Shown in pieces: positions 9,542 to 47,266 of a stretch of DNA of 64,000 nucleotides. The notes under the pieces were generated by a model, which was not told the DNA's origin, made no database searches, and worked only from the letters and a program-made list of their open reading frames with translations. The DNA lies in NCBI RefSeq assembly GCF_009769755.1, contig NZ_SDWJ01000001.1, forward strand, positions 806,001 to 870,000, read 5' to 3'. A program made the translations under genes and the position numbers. This DNA is from Sphingorhabdus profundilacus (lineage in GTDB: Bacteria > Pseudomonadota > Alphaproteobacteria > Sphingomonadales > Sphingomonadaceae). How positions within the stretch are numbered: position 1 is the stretch's first letter; the number at the start of each line of letters is the position of its first letter.

Positions 9542-9645
9542 CCTTTGTCTCACTATGGACGAATGCGAAGATGTGCAATCAAGTTGATCGGTTATCTTCA
9601 CCACGAATTCAATCGAATAACAACCCGCGCCCTTTTCTCCGCTTT

Positions 9646-9808
9646 GTCACCCTGAACTTGGTTCACCTTCGGTGACTGCGTTCCAGGGTCCATCTATCGG
9701 TTCATTTCTGTCGTCACTGCGGCAACCCGCAGCGCGACGCGCGGTTGCGCTGCGCTTTGCACCGAGAAGAAATCTGCGGGATGGACCCTGAACCAAGTTC
9801 AGGGTGAC
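9646..9808. repeat. Family A palindromic repeat doublet (REPIN-like)
   Basis: An inverted pair: the left arm reads GTCACCCTGAACTTG and the right arm ends CAAGTTCAGGGTGAC, about 160 bp apart. The left arm is disrupted by about 20 extra bases holding a small CACCttcGGTG hairpin before resuming as CCAGGGTCCA. The repeat lies in the gap between the HD-GYP gene and the MFS gene. Together with the adjoining tandem array it fills most of the ~360 bp of non-coding DNA. Confidence 0.85.
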
Positions 9809-9819
9809 GGGGGAGGAAA

Positions 9820-9899
9820 GTATCAGGGTGGCGGGAGTGAGGTATCAGGGTAGCGGGAGTGAGGTATCAGGGTGAGAGGTATCAGCCTGACGGGGTGAG
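9820..9899. repeat. 22-bp tandem array next to a family A doublet
   Basis: Two full 22-bp units beginning GTATCAGGGTGGCGGGAGTG (9820-9841, 9842-9863) are followed by two partial, diverged units to 9899, just before the HD-GYP stop codon. Each unit resembles the outer end of the adjoining family A arm (TCAGGGTGACGGGGGAGG), so the array probably arose by local duplication of that end. Confidence 0.75.
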
Positions 9900-18828: not shown

Positions 18829-18847
18829 TCCTCGAAACAAAGAGATG

Positions 18848-18874
18848 GTCACCCTGAACTGGTTCCATGGTCCA
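18848..18874. repeat. Decayed family A arm (left)
   Basis: GTCACCCTGAACTGGTTCCA at 18848 followed by TGGTCCA is a degenerate family A arm. The matching inverted arm is at 19157-19171. The two flank a complete family B element, so the family A doublet was probably split by insertion. These repeats occupy the 358-bp gap between ampG and folC, which holds no gene. Confidence 0.6.
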
Positions 18875-18945
18875 TTTTGCCTCTCTACGTCTGACCTGCG
18901 TGGCACGGTTTCGTTTGTATATGCCGAAACCCAGACCCACATTTT

Positions 18946-19114
18946 GTCATTCCCGCGCAGGCGGGAATCCATGGCGTGACTTTTCGGTTGGAATGGTTCG
19001 CGCAAAGACGCGAAGACGCCAAGGGGTTGCTTTGTGCCTTCGCGTCTTTGCGCGAACAATAGGCGTTGTTAGGTGGCAAGGGCAGCCCATGGATCCCCGC
19101 CTTCGCGGGATGAC
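18946..19114. mobile_element. Family B compound inverted-repeat element, copy 1 (MITE/REPIN-like)
   Basis: The outer arms are GTCATTCCCGCGCAGGCGGG at 18946 (continuing AATCCATGG) and its inverted partner CCATGGATCCCCGCC to 19114 (ending GCGGGATGAC). Inside is a second, perfect 19-bp inverted repeat, TTCGCGCAAAGACGCGAAG (18997-19015) with CTTCGCGTCTTTGCGCGAA (19038-19056). The nested layout of 169 bp matches copy 2 at 24307. It has no coding capacity, so it would need a transposase encoded elsewhere. Confidence 0.8.
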
Positions 19115-19186: not shown

Positions 19187-20524
19187 TCAATCCGGGATTT
19201 GCTCATTTGCGCGCAAAACTTCGCCCGCAAGATAGAGCGAACCGCAGATCAGCACATCGCCGCTTGGCTCTGTTGCTGTGATCCGGTCCAAAGCCTCGGA
19301 CACGGTCGCGACTGGGTATGTATTCAATACGCCCATATCGTCCTGGACCAACCGGCATAGATCCTTAGCGTCATGATGCTCATGTCCGGGGATGGGCACA
19401 GCATGTAGCGATGCGATCTTATCGGCGAACGGCTCTAGGAAACCAACGGCATCCTTGTTCGCGAGCATGCCGAGAATGACATGCACCGAAGGGCCGTCGG
19501 TTAGCAACTTTGCAATAGCTACGCCGGCATCAGGGTTATGGCCTCCATCTAGCCATAATGTGCGGCCTTTTGGCAATTTGGCCTTCAACGGACCCTCCGC
19601 CAACATTTGCATCCGCGCGGGCCAACGGGTCCGTTCCATGGCAGCAGACAAAGCTGCCTCGGGGATGGCGAGTGCGGATTGGTGACGGAGCATCGCAACG
19701 GCAAGGGCCGCATTATCCGCTTGGTGTGCACCGGACATGCGGGGCAAAGGGAGGGTGAGTTTCCCCTTTTCATCACGGTAGTGCAGGCGCCCTTCATAGA
19801 CCGCGGCGTCCCAATCCGTCCCGCGCGCGAGCAGTTTGGCACTCGTCCGTCGGGCGGTTGCGGTGATGGTATCAACCATCGATGCCGCGTATTTCTGAAT
19901 GAGCAGGGGGGACCCGGCTTTCGCAATGCCTGCTTTTTCAAAGGCAATACGGTCGAGCGGTGCGTCTGGCGTGCCGGCCTCGGGCGCAAGCAGAAATGCT
20001 TCATGGTCGATGCCAAGCGACGCAATTCCACAAGCGACCGGGCTTGCAAGAACATTGGTGGCGTCAAGCCGTCCACCCAAACCGACTTCAACGATGCAGG
20101 CGTCTGCGGGCGTGCGGGCAAAGGCAAGGAAGGCAACGGCGGTGGTGACTTCGAAAAAGCTCGCCTGCAATCCCTCGGCATGGTCGAGCACTTCGGCAAG
20201 GAGCGAGGCAAGCATTCCATCGTCAATCAGCTTCCCCGCGACGCGAATACGTTCGTTGAAGCGGACCAGATGCGGGCTGGAATAGACATGAACTGTCATT
20301 CCGGCGGCCTCAATCGCACTGCGGAGGAAGGCACAGGTCGACCCCTTCCCGTTGGTACCTGCGACGTGAAATGTCGGCGGCAACTGGTGATGCGGATTGC
20401 CAAGCCTGTCGAGCAAGGCGGTAATGCGCTCCAACCCCAGCACATCCCGTCCGGGGGACAGCATGGTCAGCCGATCAAGTTGCGCCTGAACGGCGGGGTG
20501 GGTGGAGTGGGCGTGGTCGGGCAT
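19187..20524 (-). CDS. folC: Folylpolyglutamate synthase / dihydrofolate synthase
   Basis: FolC joins glutamate to dihydropteroate and extends folate polyglutamates. The 445-residue protein has the ATP-binding loop GTNGKGSTCAFLR, the second motif YSSPHLVRFNERI, EVGLGGRLDATN, and the C-terminal GHNPDAGV motif of the Mur-ligase-like domain. It is the last gene of the trpF-trpB-trpA-accD-folC run, an arrangement I recall from many alphaproteobacteria. The gap to accD is enlarged by a family A repeat doublet. Confidence 0.94.
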   Translation of the reverse strand: MPDHAHSTHPAVQAQLDRLTMLSPGRDVLGLERITALLDRLGNPHHQLPPTFHVAGTNGKGSTCAFLRSAIEAAGMTVHVYSSPHLVRFNERIRVAGKLIDDGMLASLLAEVLDHAEGLQASFFEVTTAVAFLAFARTPADACIVEVGLGGRLDATNVLASPVACGIASLGIDHEAFLLAPEAGTPDAPLDRIAFEKAGIAKAGSPLLIQKYAASMVDTITATARRTSAKLLARGTDWDAAVYEGRLHYRDEKGKLTLPLPRMSGAHQADNAALAVAMLRHQSALAIPEAALSAAMERTRWPARMQMLAEGPLKAKLPKGRTLWLDGGHNPDAGVAIAKLLTDGPSVHVILGMLANKDAVGFLEPFADKIASLHAVPIPGHEHHDAKDLCRLVQDDMGVLNTYPVATVSEALDRITATEPSGDVLICGSLYLAGEVLRANEQIPD

Positions 20525-20552
20525 GCGACTAATTGGACCAAATTAAGAGGGC

Positions 20553-20641
20553 GTCACCCTGAACTTGTTTCAGGGTCCATTTTCCGGTCGCGACCGACGT
20601 CTTTACTTGCACGATGGATCCTGAAACAAGTTCAGGATGAC
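20553..20641. repeat. Family A palindromic repeat doublet (accD-folC gap)
   Basis: An 89-bp inverted doublet: the left arm has CCCTGAACTTGTTTCAGGG and the right arm ATCCTGAAACAAGTTCAGGA. Each arm is itself a small hairpin (CCCTGAA..TTCAGGG). The right arm has compensating C/G to T/A changes that keep its hairpin paired (TCCTGAA with TTCAGGA), which suggests the fold matters. Confidence 0.9.
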
Positions 20642-20667
20642 GGGGAGTAGAAAACAACGTTCTTGCC

Positions 20668-21522
20668 TCAAGCCGCCTTCTTCTCGGGCGCCAGATAACC
20701 GATCAACTGTGACAGCACCCCGCGCAAATCGTGGCGGTGGGTGACCATGTCGATCATGCCATGTTCGAGCAGATATTCCGCACGCTGGAAGCCTTCGGGC
20801 AGTTTTTCGCGGATCGTCTGTTCGATCACCCGCTGCCCTGCAAAGCCGATAAGCGCACCCGGCTCCGCGATTTGTACGTCGCCCAGCATGGCATAGGAAG
20901 CCGTTACACCGCCTGTGGTCGGATCGGTCAGCACGACAATATAAGGCAGGCCCGCATCGTGGAGCATCTGGATCGCCACAGTTGAGCGCGGCATCTGCAT
21001 CAGGGACAAAATCCCCTCCTGCATCCGCGCGCCACCAGCGGCAGTGAAAATGATGTAGGGGCATTTGGCGCGGATTGCGGCCTTGACCGCATCGACAAAG
21101 GCTTCACCCACGGCCATGCCCATCGACCCGCCCATGAAGGCGAAATCCTGCACGCTGACGACGGCGGTCTGGCCGTTGATTTCGCCTTTGGCGCTGATCA
21201 TCGCGTCCTGCTCCCCGGTGGCGAGGCGGGCGGCTTTTATGCGGTCGGTGTATTTTTTGGTATCTTTGAACTTCAAAGGATCTTCGCCGACAATGGGTGG
21301 CTTGAGAACATCATAGCTGTCGTCATCGAACAGCGCAGCGAAACGCTCAGCCGGTCCGATGCGGCCATGATGTCCACATTTTGGGCATACCGACTGGTTC
21401 TCCTCAAATTCCTTGAGGAAAATCATGGCATTGCAGCCCTTGCACTTGTGCCAGAGCGTTTCGGCCGTTTCGCGCTTGGCGATGAAGGGGATGGCGTTGC
21501 GGACGCGGGTGACCCAGTTCAT
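20668..21522 (-). CDS. accD: Acetyl-CoA carboxylase carboxyltransferase subunit beta
   Basis: AccD pairs with AccA to transfer CO2 from biotin to acetyl-CoA, the first step of fatty-acid synthesis. The 284-residue protein has the N-terminal zinc ribbon CKGCNAMIF...CPKCGHHGR and the crotonase-fold core [30 protein letters not shown], and [37 protein letters not shown]. It starts 2 bp after trpA, so it belongs to the same transcript. The trpFBA-accD-folC order is characteristic of alphaproteobacteria. Confidence 0.96.
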
Positions 21523-22310: not shown

Positions 22311-22324
22311 GTGCACCCCTTTCC

Positions 22325-22401
22325 GTCATGCTGAACTTGTTTCAGCATCTTAGTTTTCTGCGGCTTGCGAAAGTAAGACCCTGAAACAAGTTCAGGGTGA
22401 C
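22325..22401. repeat. Family A palindromic repeat doublet (trpB-trpA gap)
   Basis: A 77-bp inverted doublet. The left arm is a variant with a compensated hairpin, GCTGAACTTGTTTCAGC; the right arm is CCCTGAAACAAGTTCAGGG. It lies inside the trpBA transcript, 14 bp upstream of the trpA start, so the RNA hairpins sit next to the trpA ribosome-binding site. Confidence 0.9.
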
Positions 22402-22416
22402 AGGCGCGGGGATTGC

Positions 22417-24286: not shown

Positions 24287-24306
24287 GGCAACCCCAAACC
24301 ACATTT

Positions 24307-24467
24307 GTCATTCCTGCGAAAGCGGGAATCCATGGTCTGATATTTTTTACATGAGACGATTTGGTTTGCACAAAGGCACGAAGCAACTTCTTTGTGCCTT
24401 CGTGTCTTTGTGCGAACAATTCCAACCAAAAAGTCAGGCCATGGATTCCCGCCTGCACGGGGATGAC
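24307..24467. mobile_element. Family B compound inverted-repeat element, copy 2
   Basis: The outer arms are GTCATTCCTGCGAAAGCGGG (24307, continuing AATCCATGG) and CCATGGATTCCCGCC (24439, ending GGGGATGAC at 24467). The inner arms TTTGCACAAAGGCACGAAG and CTTCGTGTCTTTGTGCGAA (24398-24416) pair with two mismatches. It shares layout and the internal word CTTTGTGCCTTCG with copy 1. It separates the GNAT gene from trpF on the same strand, 20 bp upstream of the trpF ATG, so it lies where a trpF leader would be. Confidence 0.8.
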
Positions 24468-24486
24468 AATATTGCTAGGTAAGGCG

Positions 24487-24967: not shown

Positions 24968-25642
24968 CTAAAGCGTCCCGACGATAGCCCGTGCTGCATC
25001 GTCAGGGCTCTCCGCCTTGGTAATCGGACGGCCTATCACAAGGACGCTTGCGCCGTCGTCGCGGGCTTGCCGCGGGGTGACCGTGCGTTTCTGGTCGCCG
25101 CTTTGGCCACCTTCGGGACGCAGGCCGGGAACGACGAAAAAGCCGTCTTTCCAAAGCTTTTTGACTGCTTTTACCTCATGACCGGAACAGACGATACCAT
25201 CCAGCCCAGCGTCCTTTGCCAATGCCGCAAGTCGGGCGACTTGCGCGTCGGGGCTGTCGGGAACCCCGATACGGCTAAGGTCATGGTCATCAAGGCTGGT
25301 CAGCACGGTCACCGCAACGACCTTTGTATGCGCCCCTGCGGCCGCCTTGGCATCTTCCATCATCGCCCGTCCACCGGCGGCGTGGATGGTGACAATAGCC
25401 GGTTCAAGCGCATGGATCGCCTGCATAGCCTTGGCAACCGTATTGGGAATGTCATGCAATTTCAGGTCAAGGAAGATCGGCAAGCCCAGTTTCTGCACTT
25501 CATGCACACCATGATGGCCATTGGCACAAAAAAATTCGAGGCCCAGTTTTACGCCGCCGACATGATGTTTGATCCGCTTCACCAGTTCCAGCGCATTGTC
25601 GAGATAAGGCGTGTCGATGGCCACATAGAGCGGGTTTGTCAT
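24968..25642 (-). CDS. pyrF: Orotidine 5'-phosphate decarboxylase
   Basis: PyrF decarboxylates OMP to UMP, the last step of de novo pyrimidine synthesis. The 224-residue protein shows the catalytic LDLKLHDIPNTV motif (Asp-Lys-Asp tetrad), VKLGLEFF, and the phosphate-binding VVPGLRPEGGQSGDQKR loop with LVIGRPITKAESP. Its ATG overlaps the lapA TGA (ATGA), so the two are coupled. The open frame upstream to 25756 is antisense or out of frame with lapA and is rejected. Confidence 0.95.
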   Translation of the reverse strand: MTNPLYVAIDTPYLDNALELVKRIKHHVGGVKLGLEFFCANGHHGVHEVQKLGLPIFLDLKLHDIPNTVAKAMQAIHALEPAIVTIHAAGGRAMMEDAKAAAGAHTKVVAVTVLTSLDDHDLSRIGVPDSPDAQVARLAALAKDAGLDGIVCSGHEVKAVKKLWKDGFFVVPGLRPEGGQSGDQKRTVTPRQARDDGASVLVIGRPITKAESPDDAARAIVGTL

Positions 25643-25947
25643 GCGGCATCTCCCGAAGTGTAGCCAGGTTTGGGCCCGGCAGGTGGCGGAGGAGGCGGGA
25701 AGGTAGCGGTCCGCTGGCTGCTCTCCAACGTCAAAATCCGCCGTTTCATGCGCCACATCATGGTGCGGTGGATGGAATAAAGCGGCAAGAAACCGATCAA
25801 AAGTGCGGCAATGACGAGCGCCGGCAATTTAGTATCCAACCGCATGCCGCCCCACAGGCTGATCGAGACAGGCACCCAATTGTTCGTTGCGAACACAATC
25901 AGGCCGACAATCACGGTCACCCAGATCAGTGTTTTCAAAAATCGCAT
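25639..25947 (-). CDS. lapA: LapA/DUF1049-family small membrane protein
   Basis: The 102-residue protein has two transmembrane segments (about 5-22 and 42-60) separated by NNWVPVSISLWGGMRLDTKLPALV, the DUF1049/LapA pattern seen next to pyrF in proteobacteria. After a basic stretch (MMWRMKRRILTLE) the C-terminus is Pro-rich. In E. coli LapA takes part in regulated lipopolysaccharide synthesis, but alphaproteobacterial members lack the LapB partner next door, so the role is uncertain. It is translationally coupled to pyrF. Confidence 0.75.
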   Translation of the reverse strand: MRFLKTLIWVTVIVGLIVFATNNWVPVSISLWGGMRLDTKLPALVIAALLIGFLPLYSIHRTMMWRMKRRILTLESSQRTATFPPPPPPAGPKPGYTSGDAA

Positions 25948-26046
25948 GGGGGGGTGGCTCCTTTTTCCATACCTTATGGGATGTTTGTCGGCTTGGGTAG
26001 GGGGAAGAATTGATTATTGCTCCAGCCCGATCAAAATATCCAACCC

Positions 26047-26188
26047 GTCACCCTGAACTTGTTTCAGGGTCTATTTAACAGCCCACCCCTTGCTTGTCTT
26101 GGCAAGCCAAACGATGCCGCACGGCTACGCTACCTTTCACGTTATGGGTAACTTTGCCCGATGGACCCTGAAACAAGTTCAGGGTGAC
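26047..26188. repeat. Family A palindromic repeat doublet (purB-lapA gap)
   Basis: The left arm has CCCTGAACTTGTTTCAGGG; the right arm is the inverted CCCTGAAACAAGTTCAGGG ending at 26188. The 142-bp doublet takes up about half of the 294-bp gap between purB and lapA. It lies upstream of the lapA-pyrF transcript. The rest of the gap shows no gene. Confidence 0.9.
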
Positions 26189-26241
26189 GGTGGGTGGTTG
26201 TGTGAAGTTATTGCGTAGCGGCGCAGTTACCAATCAATAAC

Positions 26242-27552
26242 TTACCCAAAAACCCGGTCAAAAATCGTATGCACATGTTTGAAATGATAATCAAGATTGA
26301 ACCGGTCTTCTATTTCCTCCGCGCTCATCTTGGCAGCAACATCGGGATCGGCTTTTAGCAGTTCCAAAAGTGACAGCGCCCCATCCGACTCCCATACTTT
26401 CATCGCGTTGCGTTGTACGATGGTATAGCTGTCTTCACGGCTGATGCCGGCCTGCGTAAGGGCAAGCAAAACCCGCTGCGAATGAACAAGGCCGCCCATG
26501 CGGTCGAGATTCTTTTGCATACGGGCGGGATAAACCAGCAGTTTCTCTACAACTCCGGTCAAACGGCCCAGCGCAAAATCGAGCGTGATCGTTGCGTCGG
26601 GGCCGATGTAGCGTTCGACCGAGGAATGGGAAATATCACGCTCATGCCACAGCGCGACATTTTCCATCGCCGGGGTCACCGCGCTGCGGACCATGCGGGC
26701 AAGTCCGGTCAGATTTTCGGTCAGGATCGGGTTGCGCTTGTGCGGCATCGCCGAACTGCCTTTTTGGCCCGGCGAGAAATATTCTTCCGCCTCCAACACT
26801 TCGGTGCGTTGCAGATGACGGATTTCTATGGCGAGCCGTTCAATCGACGATGCAATGACACCCAAAATCGCAAAAAACATGGCGTGCCGGTCGCGTGGGA
26901 TGACCTGTGTTGAAACGGGCTCAACCGAAAGACCCAGCTTCGCGGCCACATGCGCCTCAACCTTGGGGTCGATATTGGCAAATGTTCCAACCGCCCCCGA
27001 AATCGCACACGTCGCAATCTCGGCCCGGGCCGCGACAAGACGTTCGCGTCCGCGCGCAAATTCCGCATAGGCCTGCGCCAGTTTCAACCCAAAGGTCACC
27101 GGTTCTGCATGTATGCCATGGCTACGACCGATGGTGGGCGTGAATTTATGCTCCATCGCCCGGGTTTTCAGGGCCGCAAGCAACGCATCCATATCTGCGA
27201 GCAGAAGGTCGGTTGCCTGCGTTAACTGCACAGCGAGGCAGGTATCCAGCACGTCGGATGATGTCATACCCTGATGCATGAAGCGGGCTTCGTCGCCGAC
27301 CTGTTCGGCCACCCATGTCAAAAACGCTATGACGTCATGCTTCGTGACTGCTTCAATGGCGTCAATTGCAGCAACGTCGATGGCAGGGTTGGTTGCCCAC
27401 CACGTCCAAAGGGCCTCGGCAGCCGATTTTGGTACGACACCCAGTTCCGCAAGTGCGTCGGTTGCATGCGCCTCGATTTCAAACCAGATGCGGAACCGGT
27501 TCTCCGGCTCCCAGATTTTGGTCATGGCGGGGCGGGAATAACGAGGGATCAT
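26242..27552 (-). CDS. purB: Adenylosuccinate lyase
   Basis: PurB works twice in purine synthesis, splitting fumarate from SAICAR and from adenylosuccinate. The 436-residue protein starts MIPRYSRPAMTKIWEPENRFRIWFEIE, and shows KHDVIAFLTWVAE, MTSSDVLDT, GRSHGIHAEPVTFGLK and the fumarase-superfamily signature GSSAMPHKRNP. Length and motifs are normal. It is divergent from parC across 126 bp and is followed on its own strand by a repeat-filled gap before lapA. Confidence 0.96.
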   Translation of the reverse strand: MIPRYSRPAMTKIWEPENRFRIWFEIEAHATDALAELGVVPKSAAEALWTWWATNPAIDVAAIDAIEAVTKHDVIAFLTWVAEQVGDEARFMHQGMTSSDVLDTCLAVQLTQATDLLLADMDALLAALKTRAMEHKFTPTIGRSHGIHAEPVTFGLKLAQAYAEFARGRERLVAARAEIATCAISGAVGTFANIDPKVEAHVAAKLGLSVEPVSTQVIPRDRHAMFFAILGVIASSIERLAIEIRHLQRTEVLEAEEYFSPGQKGSSAMPHKRNPILTENLTGLARMVRSAVTPAMENVALWHERDISHSSVERYIGPDATITLDFALGRLTGVVEKLLVYPARMQKNLDRMGGLVHSQRVLLALTQAGISREDSYTIVQRNAMKVWESDGALSLLELLKADPDVAAKMSAEEIEDRFNLDYHFKHVHTIFDRVFG

Positions 27553-46018: not shown

Positions 46019-46972
46019 ATGCATGGCTGGATCATATTGGATAAACCATTGGGTTTGGGCTCCACCCAGGCCGTGGCCGCGGTTAAGCGGAACCTGCGTC
46101 AGGCTGGCTTTGGCAAAGTTAAAGTGGGCCATGGCGGGACCCTCGATCCCCTGGCAACGGGGGTGTTGCCGATAGCATTGGGTGAAGCGACAAAGCTCTG
46201 CGGGCGAATGCTCGATGCATCGAAGACATATGAGTTCACCATAAGTTTCGGAGCCGAAACAAGAGGCCTTGATGCCGAGGGCAAGGTCGTAGCGACTTCG
46301 GACCTTCGGCCGACCATATCAGAAATAGAGCTGGTTTTGGGCGAGTTCACCGGTGCCATCGCGCAAATTCCACCGGCATATTCAGCTATCAAAATCGATG
46401 GCAAGCGTGCGTATGAACGGGCCAGAGCAGGCGAAGATGTGGAGATGAACGCGCGGTCAATATTCGTCCACAGCCTCACACTCCATCACCCTGAACTTGT
46501 TTCAGGGTCTTATTTTGACGAGCAGAATAGTACGACCCTGAAACAAGTTCAGGGTGACGAGACTTTGAGTTCGGTGACCTTTTCGGCCCATGTTTCCAAA
46601 GGCACCTATATCCGTTCACTTGCCCGCGATATCGCTTATGCTGTGGGTACCGTGGGTCATGTGACCATGCTCCGCCGGACCCGCGCCGGACCATTTGACT
46701 TGGAAAGCGCGATTTCGCTGGACAAACTGAATGCTTTCGGCCAAGGGGCGGCCCAAGAAGACATTATCTTGCCGATAGAGGCAGGGCTGGTCGACATCCC
46801 GGCTCTTGATCTCTCCCCGGAACAGGCAAGGGCGATCCAACAGGGTCGCGTCTTGACCGGGATTGCCATGAAAGATGGTCTACATTGGGCGAGGGACGCG
46901 GAAATGCGGCCTATTGCGCTGGTGGAGAGCATCGACGGAGAATTAAGATCCGTCCGTGGCTTTAACCTTTAA
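46019..46972 (+). CDS. truB: tRNA pseudouridine(55) synthase with an in-frame repeat-encoded insert
   Basis: TruB makes pseudouridine at position 55 of the T-loop in tRNAs. The 317-residue protein shows HGWIILDKPLGLGSTQAV, the catalytic Asp43 in GGTLDPLATGVLPIALGEATK, PPAYSAIKIDGKRAYERARAG, and SKGTYIRSLARDIA. About 25 residues at 156-180 (HHPELVSGSYFDEQNSTTLK and on) have no place in the family and are encoded by a family A repeat doublet inserted in frame at 46485-46558. The insert falls between two beta strands (SLTL and VTFSAHV), ahead of the RNA-binding SKGTYIR segment. All catalytic motifs are intact, so the enzyme is probably functional. Confidence 0.93.
   Translation: MHGWIILDKPLGLGSTQAVAAVKRNLRQAGFGKVKVGHGGTLDPLATGVLPIALGEATKLCGRMLDASKTYEFTISFGAETRGLDAEGKVVATSDLRPTISEIELVLGEFTGAIAQIPPAYSAIKIDGKRAYERARAGEDVEMNARSIFVHSLTLHHPELVSGSYFDEQNSTTLKQVQGDETLSSVTFSAHVSKGTYIRSLARDIAYAVGTVGHVTMLRRTRAGPFDLESAISLDKLNAFGQGAAQEDIILPIEAGLVDIPALDLSPEQARAIQQGRVLTGIAMKDGLHWARDAEMRPIALVESIDGELRSVRGFNL
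46485..46558. repeat. Family A palindromic repeat doublet inside truB
   Basis: The inverted arms CCCTGAACTTGTTTCAGGG and CCCTGAAACAAGTTCAGGG, about 74 bp end to end, are read through in frame as part of truB, adding about 25 codons. This is the only family A copy in the window that is inside a protein-coding gene. Confidence 0.92.
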
Positions 46973-46996: not shown

Positions 46997-47266
46997 ATGT
47001 CTATTACTGCTGAACGTAAAGCCCAGGTTATCAAAGAGCATGCTCGTGAGCCTAATGATACCGGATCGCCTGAAGTGCAGGTTGCCATTCTGACCGACCG
47101 GATCAACGCCCTGACGGGTCATTTCAAGGATCACCACAAGGACAACCATTCGCGTCGTGGTCTTTTGATGATGGTCAACAAGCGCCGTTCGCTTCTGGAC
47201 TATTTGAAGAAAATTGATGCGGACCGTTACGCCGCACTCATCGCGAAGCTCGGTCTTCGCAAGTAA
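46997..47266 (+). CDS. rpsO: 30S ribosomal protein S15
   Basis: The 89-residue product is S15: [89 protein letters not shown], with the HxxDxxSRRGL rRNA-binding motif. A GAAGGA site lies upstream of the ATG. It is followed by a strong terminator-like hairpin and then pnp, the common rpsO-pnp pairing in which S15 and PNPase expression are often controlled through the leader. Confidence 0.97.

Follow-up and report, generated by a model that had tools for sequence, protein, structure and literature searches.

The window analysed here, that is, the whole stretch of 64,000 nucleotides, comes from Sphingorhabdus profundilacus (genome G000; 2.9 Mb, three contigs) and contains truB, into whose reading frame a doublet of palindromic repeats (REPs) is set. 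The 89-aa ORF that follows truB is one which we take to be rpsO, and the 778-aa ORF after it is presumably pnp. The features are listed below, with the kind of evidence in brackets.

46019..46972, + strand: truB, encoding a tRNA pseudouridine(55) synthase of 317 aa and carrying the insert (ORF, TIGR00431)
46484..46558, + strand: REP doublet read in frame as TruB residues 156-180, HHPELVSGSYFDEQNSTTLKQVQGD (sequence, ORF)
46486..46512, + strand: left arm of the doublet, encoding HPELVSGS, its tag reading CATC (inverted repeat, dispersed arm)
46513..46530, + strand: spacer of 18 nt separating the arms (inverted repeat)
46531..46557, - strand: right arm of the doublet, encoding TLKQVQGD (inverted repeat, dispersed arm)
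46997..47266, + strand: 89-aa ORF directly downstream of truB on the same strand, starting 24 nt past it (ORF)
20540..20646, no strand assigned: doublet of the same family, comparison copy (between ORFs 19187-20524 and 20668-21522)
26034..26196, no strand assigned: doublet of the same family, comparison copy (between ORFs 24968-25756 and 26242-27552)

The truB frame passes the TIGR00431 equivalog cut-off for TruB (223.2 bits against 151.45), and both family profile and fold place its product in TruB. The two arms of the doublet, 27 nt each and 96% complementary, lie entirely within this open frame, in agreement with an earlier note on this DNA, which had read a palindromic doublet in frame in truB. 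Positions 46535-46558 of the right arm are an exact 24-nt copy of a dispersed arm (G000:C1:852535-852558, 0 mismatches), and GACG, the CGTC tag, stands at 46556-46559. As RNA, 46484-46561 folds with -49.8 kcal/mol (z -12.5), and none of 200 dinucleotide shuffles folds as well. In the AF2 model, the insert sits between the TruB strands 146-156 and 185-192, where the note had placed it between two beta strands, and pLDDT is below 50 at residues 161-168 and 170-176, which make up most of the insert. Since the loop is disordered in the model, it is presumably exposed at the surface, the point that modelling had been proposed to check.

The repeat is dispersed through the host genome. With up to three mismatches, the arm of the truB doublet occurs at 93 + 84 = 177 places (a reversed control gave 0), including at least 83 exact places among the matches listed, one of which is the right arm in truB, and inverted pairs of the arm are found at many loci. 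Within the window, other copies of the doublet family lie at about 9643-9876, 18835-18878, 20540-20646, 22322-22406 and 26034-26196, all between long ORFs; the ORFs of at least 90 aa that overlap them measure 92-153 aa, together with one 347-aa ORF antisense to a 445-aa ORF. The claim that all other copies are non-coding therefore stands within the window, as judged from the ORF layout, but not genome-wide, where glyS and ybeY also carry doublets in frame.

By its tag, stem, loop, tail and inverted pairing, the repeat fits the CGTC-REP type as far as such sequence features go. CGTC-REPs, according to the available portions of Di Nocera et al. (2013; PMC3733652), have a stem of 8-9 bp, a loop of 4-5 nt and a short, mostly CCA tail (Table 1, section 6), carry the tag CGTC or a variant unpaired at one repeat end, are dispersed and frequently paired in inverted orientation, with HH dimers predominating, have no linked transposase and include intragenic copies. 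In the present repeat, the CGTC tag is found in dispersed copies (CGTCACCCTGAAC...) and is intact in the right arm of the truB doublet, the left arm having CATC; the stem and loop, ACCCTGAA / CTTGT / TTCAGGGT, comprise 8 bp and 5 nt as read from the sequence; and copies such as 20552-20580 end in a CCA tail, the tails of the truB arms being different. Judged by the same portions of PMC3733652, the likeness extends from tag, stem, loop, tail and inverted pairs to the missing Y1 transposase and to the location in frame in truB and tRNA synthetases. REPINs and GTAG REPs with RAYT, as described in the accessible parts of PMC3116915 and PMC2817692, also form inverted REP doublets at high copy number, but the present repeat has another tag, CGTC instead of GTAG, and a host genome without a Y1_Tnp match. 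The search with PF01797 (Y1_Tnp), the one transposase family looked for, found no RAYT gene there (0 of 1, with 5 of 14 control genomes positive); mobilisation by RAYT is rejected on this ground, and within that scope no mobilising enzyme was identified.

Palindromic elements read in frame in unrelated genes were reportedly described in Rickettsia by Ogata et al. in 2000 and 2002. E. litoralis and S. alaskensis, to which we turn now, are sphingomonads. An in-frame REP in truB is a known phenomenon, because the available text of PMC3733652 names REPs in tRNA pseudouridine synthase B of S. maltophilia, E. litoralis and S. alaskensis, as well as RPE-1 in truB of R. conorii. It also equates RPE-4 and RPE-6 of R. 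conorii with CGTC-REPs, and reports different REPs at about the same recB site in two Xanthomonas species. The parallel to Rickettsia palindromic elements (reviewed, in the part available, in PMC10969869) that the earlier note drew is thus apt, and the same text of PMC3733652 has it in print already. These elements resemble the present repeat in being palindromes in frame in unrelated genes, including R. conorii truB (PMC3733652, available portions), and differ from it, when compared by description, in their obligate intracellular host and in a unit of about 150 bp against about 75 bp. The present analysis adds that repeats of different classes recur at one and the same TruB turn: the portions of PMC3733652 at hand hold no comparison of truB insertion sites, whereas here a single turn displays several classes, erosion and replacement. 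A truB-turn hotspot for several repeat classes was not found in print beyond that paper in the open-licence part of PubMed Central, and a search with the repeat peptide found no paper on it.

The host genus also includes Sphingorhabdus contaminans, S. rigui and S. wooponensis. A truB match was obtained in 44 of its 45 genomes, and 42 were aligned; outside the alignment are G007, which has no match, and G025 and G026, whose matches are fragments. As the note had expected of close relatives, the nearest ones (L009, L010, L014) are without the insert and their flanks are continuous, with other short native loop residues in its place. As these native residues also differ, there is no clean one-step empty site, and inspection of the aligned relatives by eye revealed neither a clean empty site nor a target-site duplication in truB.

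In other relatives, the insert has eroded with its frame kept. Four of them (L011, L013, L016, L018) retain HAERVS-like residues and the frame, but the hairpin is gone (z -0.97, 0.21, -1.9 and -0.85, respectively; 1.1 for L013 with 200 dinucleotide shuffles), and L015 is missing 36 nt of the insert centre, in frame. Among five relatives that share one insert, the ratio of replaced to silent variable codons is 4:2 in the 25 insert codons and 16:70 in the 295 codons elsewhere, a contrast with a Fisher p of 0.019 that is uncorrected and comes from small numbers; the overall rate of variable codons does not differ between insert and rest (p 0.65).

The same turn holds repeat-type peptides in many other TruBs. 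The near-relative set, 122 loci reduced to 97 distinct truBs (80 best matches plus the genus), is biased to near relatives; by peptide signature, 61 of the 97 have such a peptide at the turn (18 of 42 genus rows and 43 of 55 others). About eight classes were found at this one turn. They are peptide classes, defined by regular expressions that we drew up and broadened once the loops had been viewed, and they include doubtful members such as L114, L123 and L137. The types are HPELVSGS...TLKQVQGD, HPEFISGS, H(A/P)GLDPGS/HPGLVPGS...DQVRGDE, RPELVEG...STSSG, VERSRD...STSLDTNG, HARESGNP/HPGGSRD...DSRFRGND, LPFRGGVG...SPEGEG, GEVAARSADGGG...PPPRAGE and PREGGGPSP. The loop DNA reaches a fold z of -3 or below in 49 of the 61 signature loops against 1 of the 36 others, whose median is -0.3 (30 to 60 mononucleotide shuffles in these loop surveys, 200 dinucleotide shuffles for the truB doublet).

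A joint search of ten genomes with nine peptides gave 92, 64, 112, 27, 32, 29, 11, 8, 4 and 1 matches, counted over all types and both strands at E up to 0.1, with the PREGGGPSP type outside the query. For seven of the nine peptide types, the matches listed include one or more copies outside truB in the genome from which the type came. The sole match of HPEFISGS in G042 is its own truB, and HPGGSRD is confined to truB among the matches listed for G024 (8 in all). On a loop-free tree, in which 42 of 94 inner branches are drawn open, the fewest changes, gain and loss counted alike, are 18 between insert and no insert and 38 over classes. Supported sister pairs of unlike class are L129/L131 (97) and L114/L122 (83). 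Of the 97 distinct TruBs, 3 have an insertion of at least 6 residues at some place other than the turn. In one genus branch (L042, L043, L044), the TruB loops are 104-178 residues long and contain HPEAT-like short repeats together with two repeat-like peptides.

Beyond the near relatives, a phylum-wide even sample of 150 genomes contained five other family members, each with two matches that part at the turn; outside the family, 142 of 144 genomes were matched, each by one match, and none of the 142 is split. A family-wide even sample of 89 genomes from 87 genera gave two matches in 47, one in 41 and none in 1. From it, 60 loops were read, in 44 of the 47 two-match and 16 of the 41 one-match genomes; the two-match genomes left aside are G042 (already read), G213 (broken over contigs) and G257 (split elsewhere). 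At least three genomes are common to the near-relative and family sets (L275 = L131, L280 = L138, L285 = L153). A repeat signature is present in 19 of the 60 loops, 18 of them with z of -3 or below, and L307, L311 and L333 fold strongly with no signature. A native GRPDPYDP-type extension is conserved in 26 of the 60, preceded by a repeat signature in three (L278, L281, L301), so that a long loop by itself is no proof of a repeat. Part of the family (L152, L153, L276, L284, L285, L289 and others) has a native extension of the SAFATTAGRPDPYDP-APLELADS type.

Unrelated long loops at this position, which the earlier note had named as evidence against its reading, do exist (L020, L021 and the GRPDPYDP loops), but the insert here is identical in DNA to a dispersed repeat. 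Long loops without a repeat signature show the turn to be apparently tolerant of length, and, from the loops compared, the truB turn looks like a recurrent site where repeat DNA becomes protein.

The doublet is translated in other genes as well, as a search for the same peptide, proposed in the note, revealed. In the host genome, two more doublets lie in frame, at G000:C1:1088625-1088714 (L062) and G000:C1:240223-240297 (L052, L173), in ybeY (PF02130) and glyS (787 aa, TIGR00211), and the glyS doublet is also present in G019. A YbeY-level match (E under 1e-20) was found in 43 of the 45 genus genomes, G010 and G041 having weak ones only, and the ybeY insert stands at the same place in 4 of the 43 (G000, G026, G011, G018); among the 30 loci read, 24 of which were parsed, 21 have a short native stretch (LDD-ELDAL--GTY-AP type) instead. 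For cysS, 22 of 30 loci, picked by similarity to a peptide-bearing copy, were parsed, and 18 of these contain the peptide or an eroded form, which is absent from the host cysS (L263). The cysS doublets of genus relatives (L244-L260, L273; L228) are in frame and range from fresh to eroded (HAELVSAS...TLKQVQGDV), and L228 has short GDVAGVR-like repeats after the doublet. An exosortase-associated acyl-CoA ligase has an in-frame doublet in G018 and G021. Most doublet-bearing genes among the matches listed encode RNA enzymes, in a list that has no background rate. A cysN-like (L215) and a sirtuin-like (L231) candidate were set aside, because their family matches begin after the repeat, which probably lies upstream of the true start.

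The insert is very probably a dispersed inverted palindromic repeat, a CGTC-REP-type doublet, that lies in frame in a tolerant hairpin turn of TruB. We infer that such palindromes insert widely in the genome and that one doublet copy came to rest in frame in the turn of the TruB beta hairpin. As read from the sequence, one frame is open in the right arm (TLKQVQGD) and two in the left, which would allow an insertion in the correct phase to contribute about 25 mostly hydrophilic residues and no stop. The tolerant turn would accept the insert, and TruB would remain functional. The peptide may later drift, shrink or be replaced by later repeats, so that in-frame inserts in a tolerant turn would survive and erode into ordinary protein. 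The proposal that this repeat family can create protein sequence is supported by the doublets translated in truB, glyS, ybeY and the cysS of relatives.

The data are best accounted for by tolerance combined with sieving, ahead of targeting, although bare tolerance would lead one to expect fewer classes at one turn, unless equally tolerant sites in proteins are few. A reading that is rather improbable, though worth weighing, is preferred targeting of the turn: unrelated families would keep landing there because the insertion process favours its DNA or an older resident repeat. Consistent with this are the roughly eight classes at one turn set beside the rarity of long insertions elsewhere in TruB, the sister sequences with different classes, the two signatures in L042-L044, the signature before a native extension in L278, L281 and L301, and, in the available text of PMC3733652, the differing REPs near the same recB site in two Xanthomonas species. 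Against it, 36 of the 97 near relatives have no signature at the turn, the doublet also entered cysS, glyS and ybeY, the repeat families have no known common machinery, and the two-signature loops fold weakly (z -2.6 to -0.3). The bolder idea that the turn of Sphingomonadaceae TruB is a landing pad, where unrelated palindromes insert preferentially, replace one another and supply new peptide to an RNA enzyme, be it through a favoured DNA target or an advantage of the insert, is tentative.

That the added peptide confers a selected new property on TruB and other RNA enzymes, for instance an extra RNA contact, is very unlikely. The genus genes with the insert (truB, cysS, glyS, ybeY and the one acyl-CoA ligase) and the frequency of the cysS peptide or its derivatives (18 of 22) would fit it, but unrelated peptides share the same TruB turn, the replaced-to-silent ratio is relaxed in one clade, and the gene list is small, drawn from the matches listed and without a background rate. 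A role of the hairpin in RNA, such as in a truB-rpsO-pnp transcript, for which it would be kept, is suggested by its great stability and by the 89-aa and 778-aa ORFs that follow. Four relatives in which the hairpin is gone while related residues and the frame persist, together with the 36 signature-free loops, whose median fold z is -0.3, make such a role very unlikely. Ordinary loop variation that merely resembles a repeat, for which the long signature-free loops of L020, L021, L152, L153 and the GRPDPYDP type might speak, is excluded for this window by the DNA identity to the dispersed arm, including the exact 24-nt copy, and by the fold z of -12.5.

Read as a repeat in a tolerant turn, the insert belongs to a known but little-studied route from parasitic DNA to protein, that of in-frame palindromes, which is best known from Rickettsia. 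In environmental bacteria that live freely, one TruB turn provides a natural series, in which the site is empty, newly filled, eroded, partly deleted or replaced and several repeat classes take part; this makes it possible to test target choice against a selection sieve and the usefulness of repeat-born peptides. For annotation, HPELVSGS- or DQVRGDE-like peptides can be repeat DNA.

Some minor observations concern the repeats themselves. Ten long open frames around repeats were scanned with Pfam; because nine have no domain, and the DMP19 domain of L219 is distant from the repeat, these frames are taken as mostly spurious or antisense. A strand bias of the arms was abandoned, as an exact minus-strand arm in L072 is missing among the matches listed. 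Another repeat class, CHSRESGNP...DPRFHGDD, is in frame in L217, a NuoF-like protein (under the NuoF cut-off) of a Sphingomonas cavernae genome. The window also contains a second palindromic family (GTCATTCCCGCG...GCGGGAATCC) at 18941-19060 and 24304-24473, whose inverted copies are long (100 nt at 86%).
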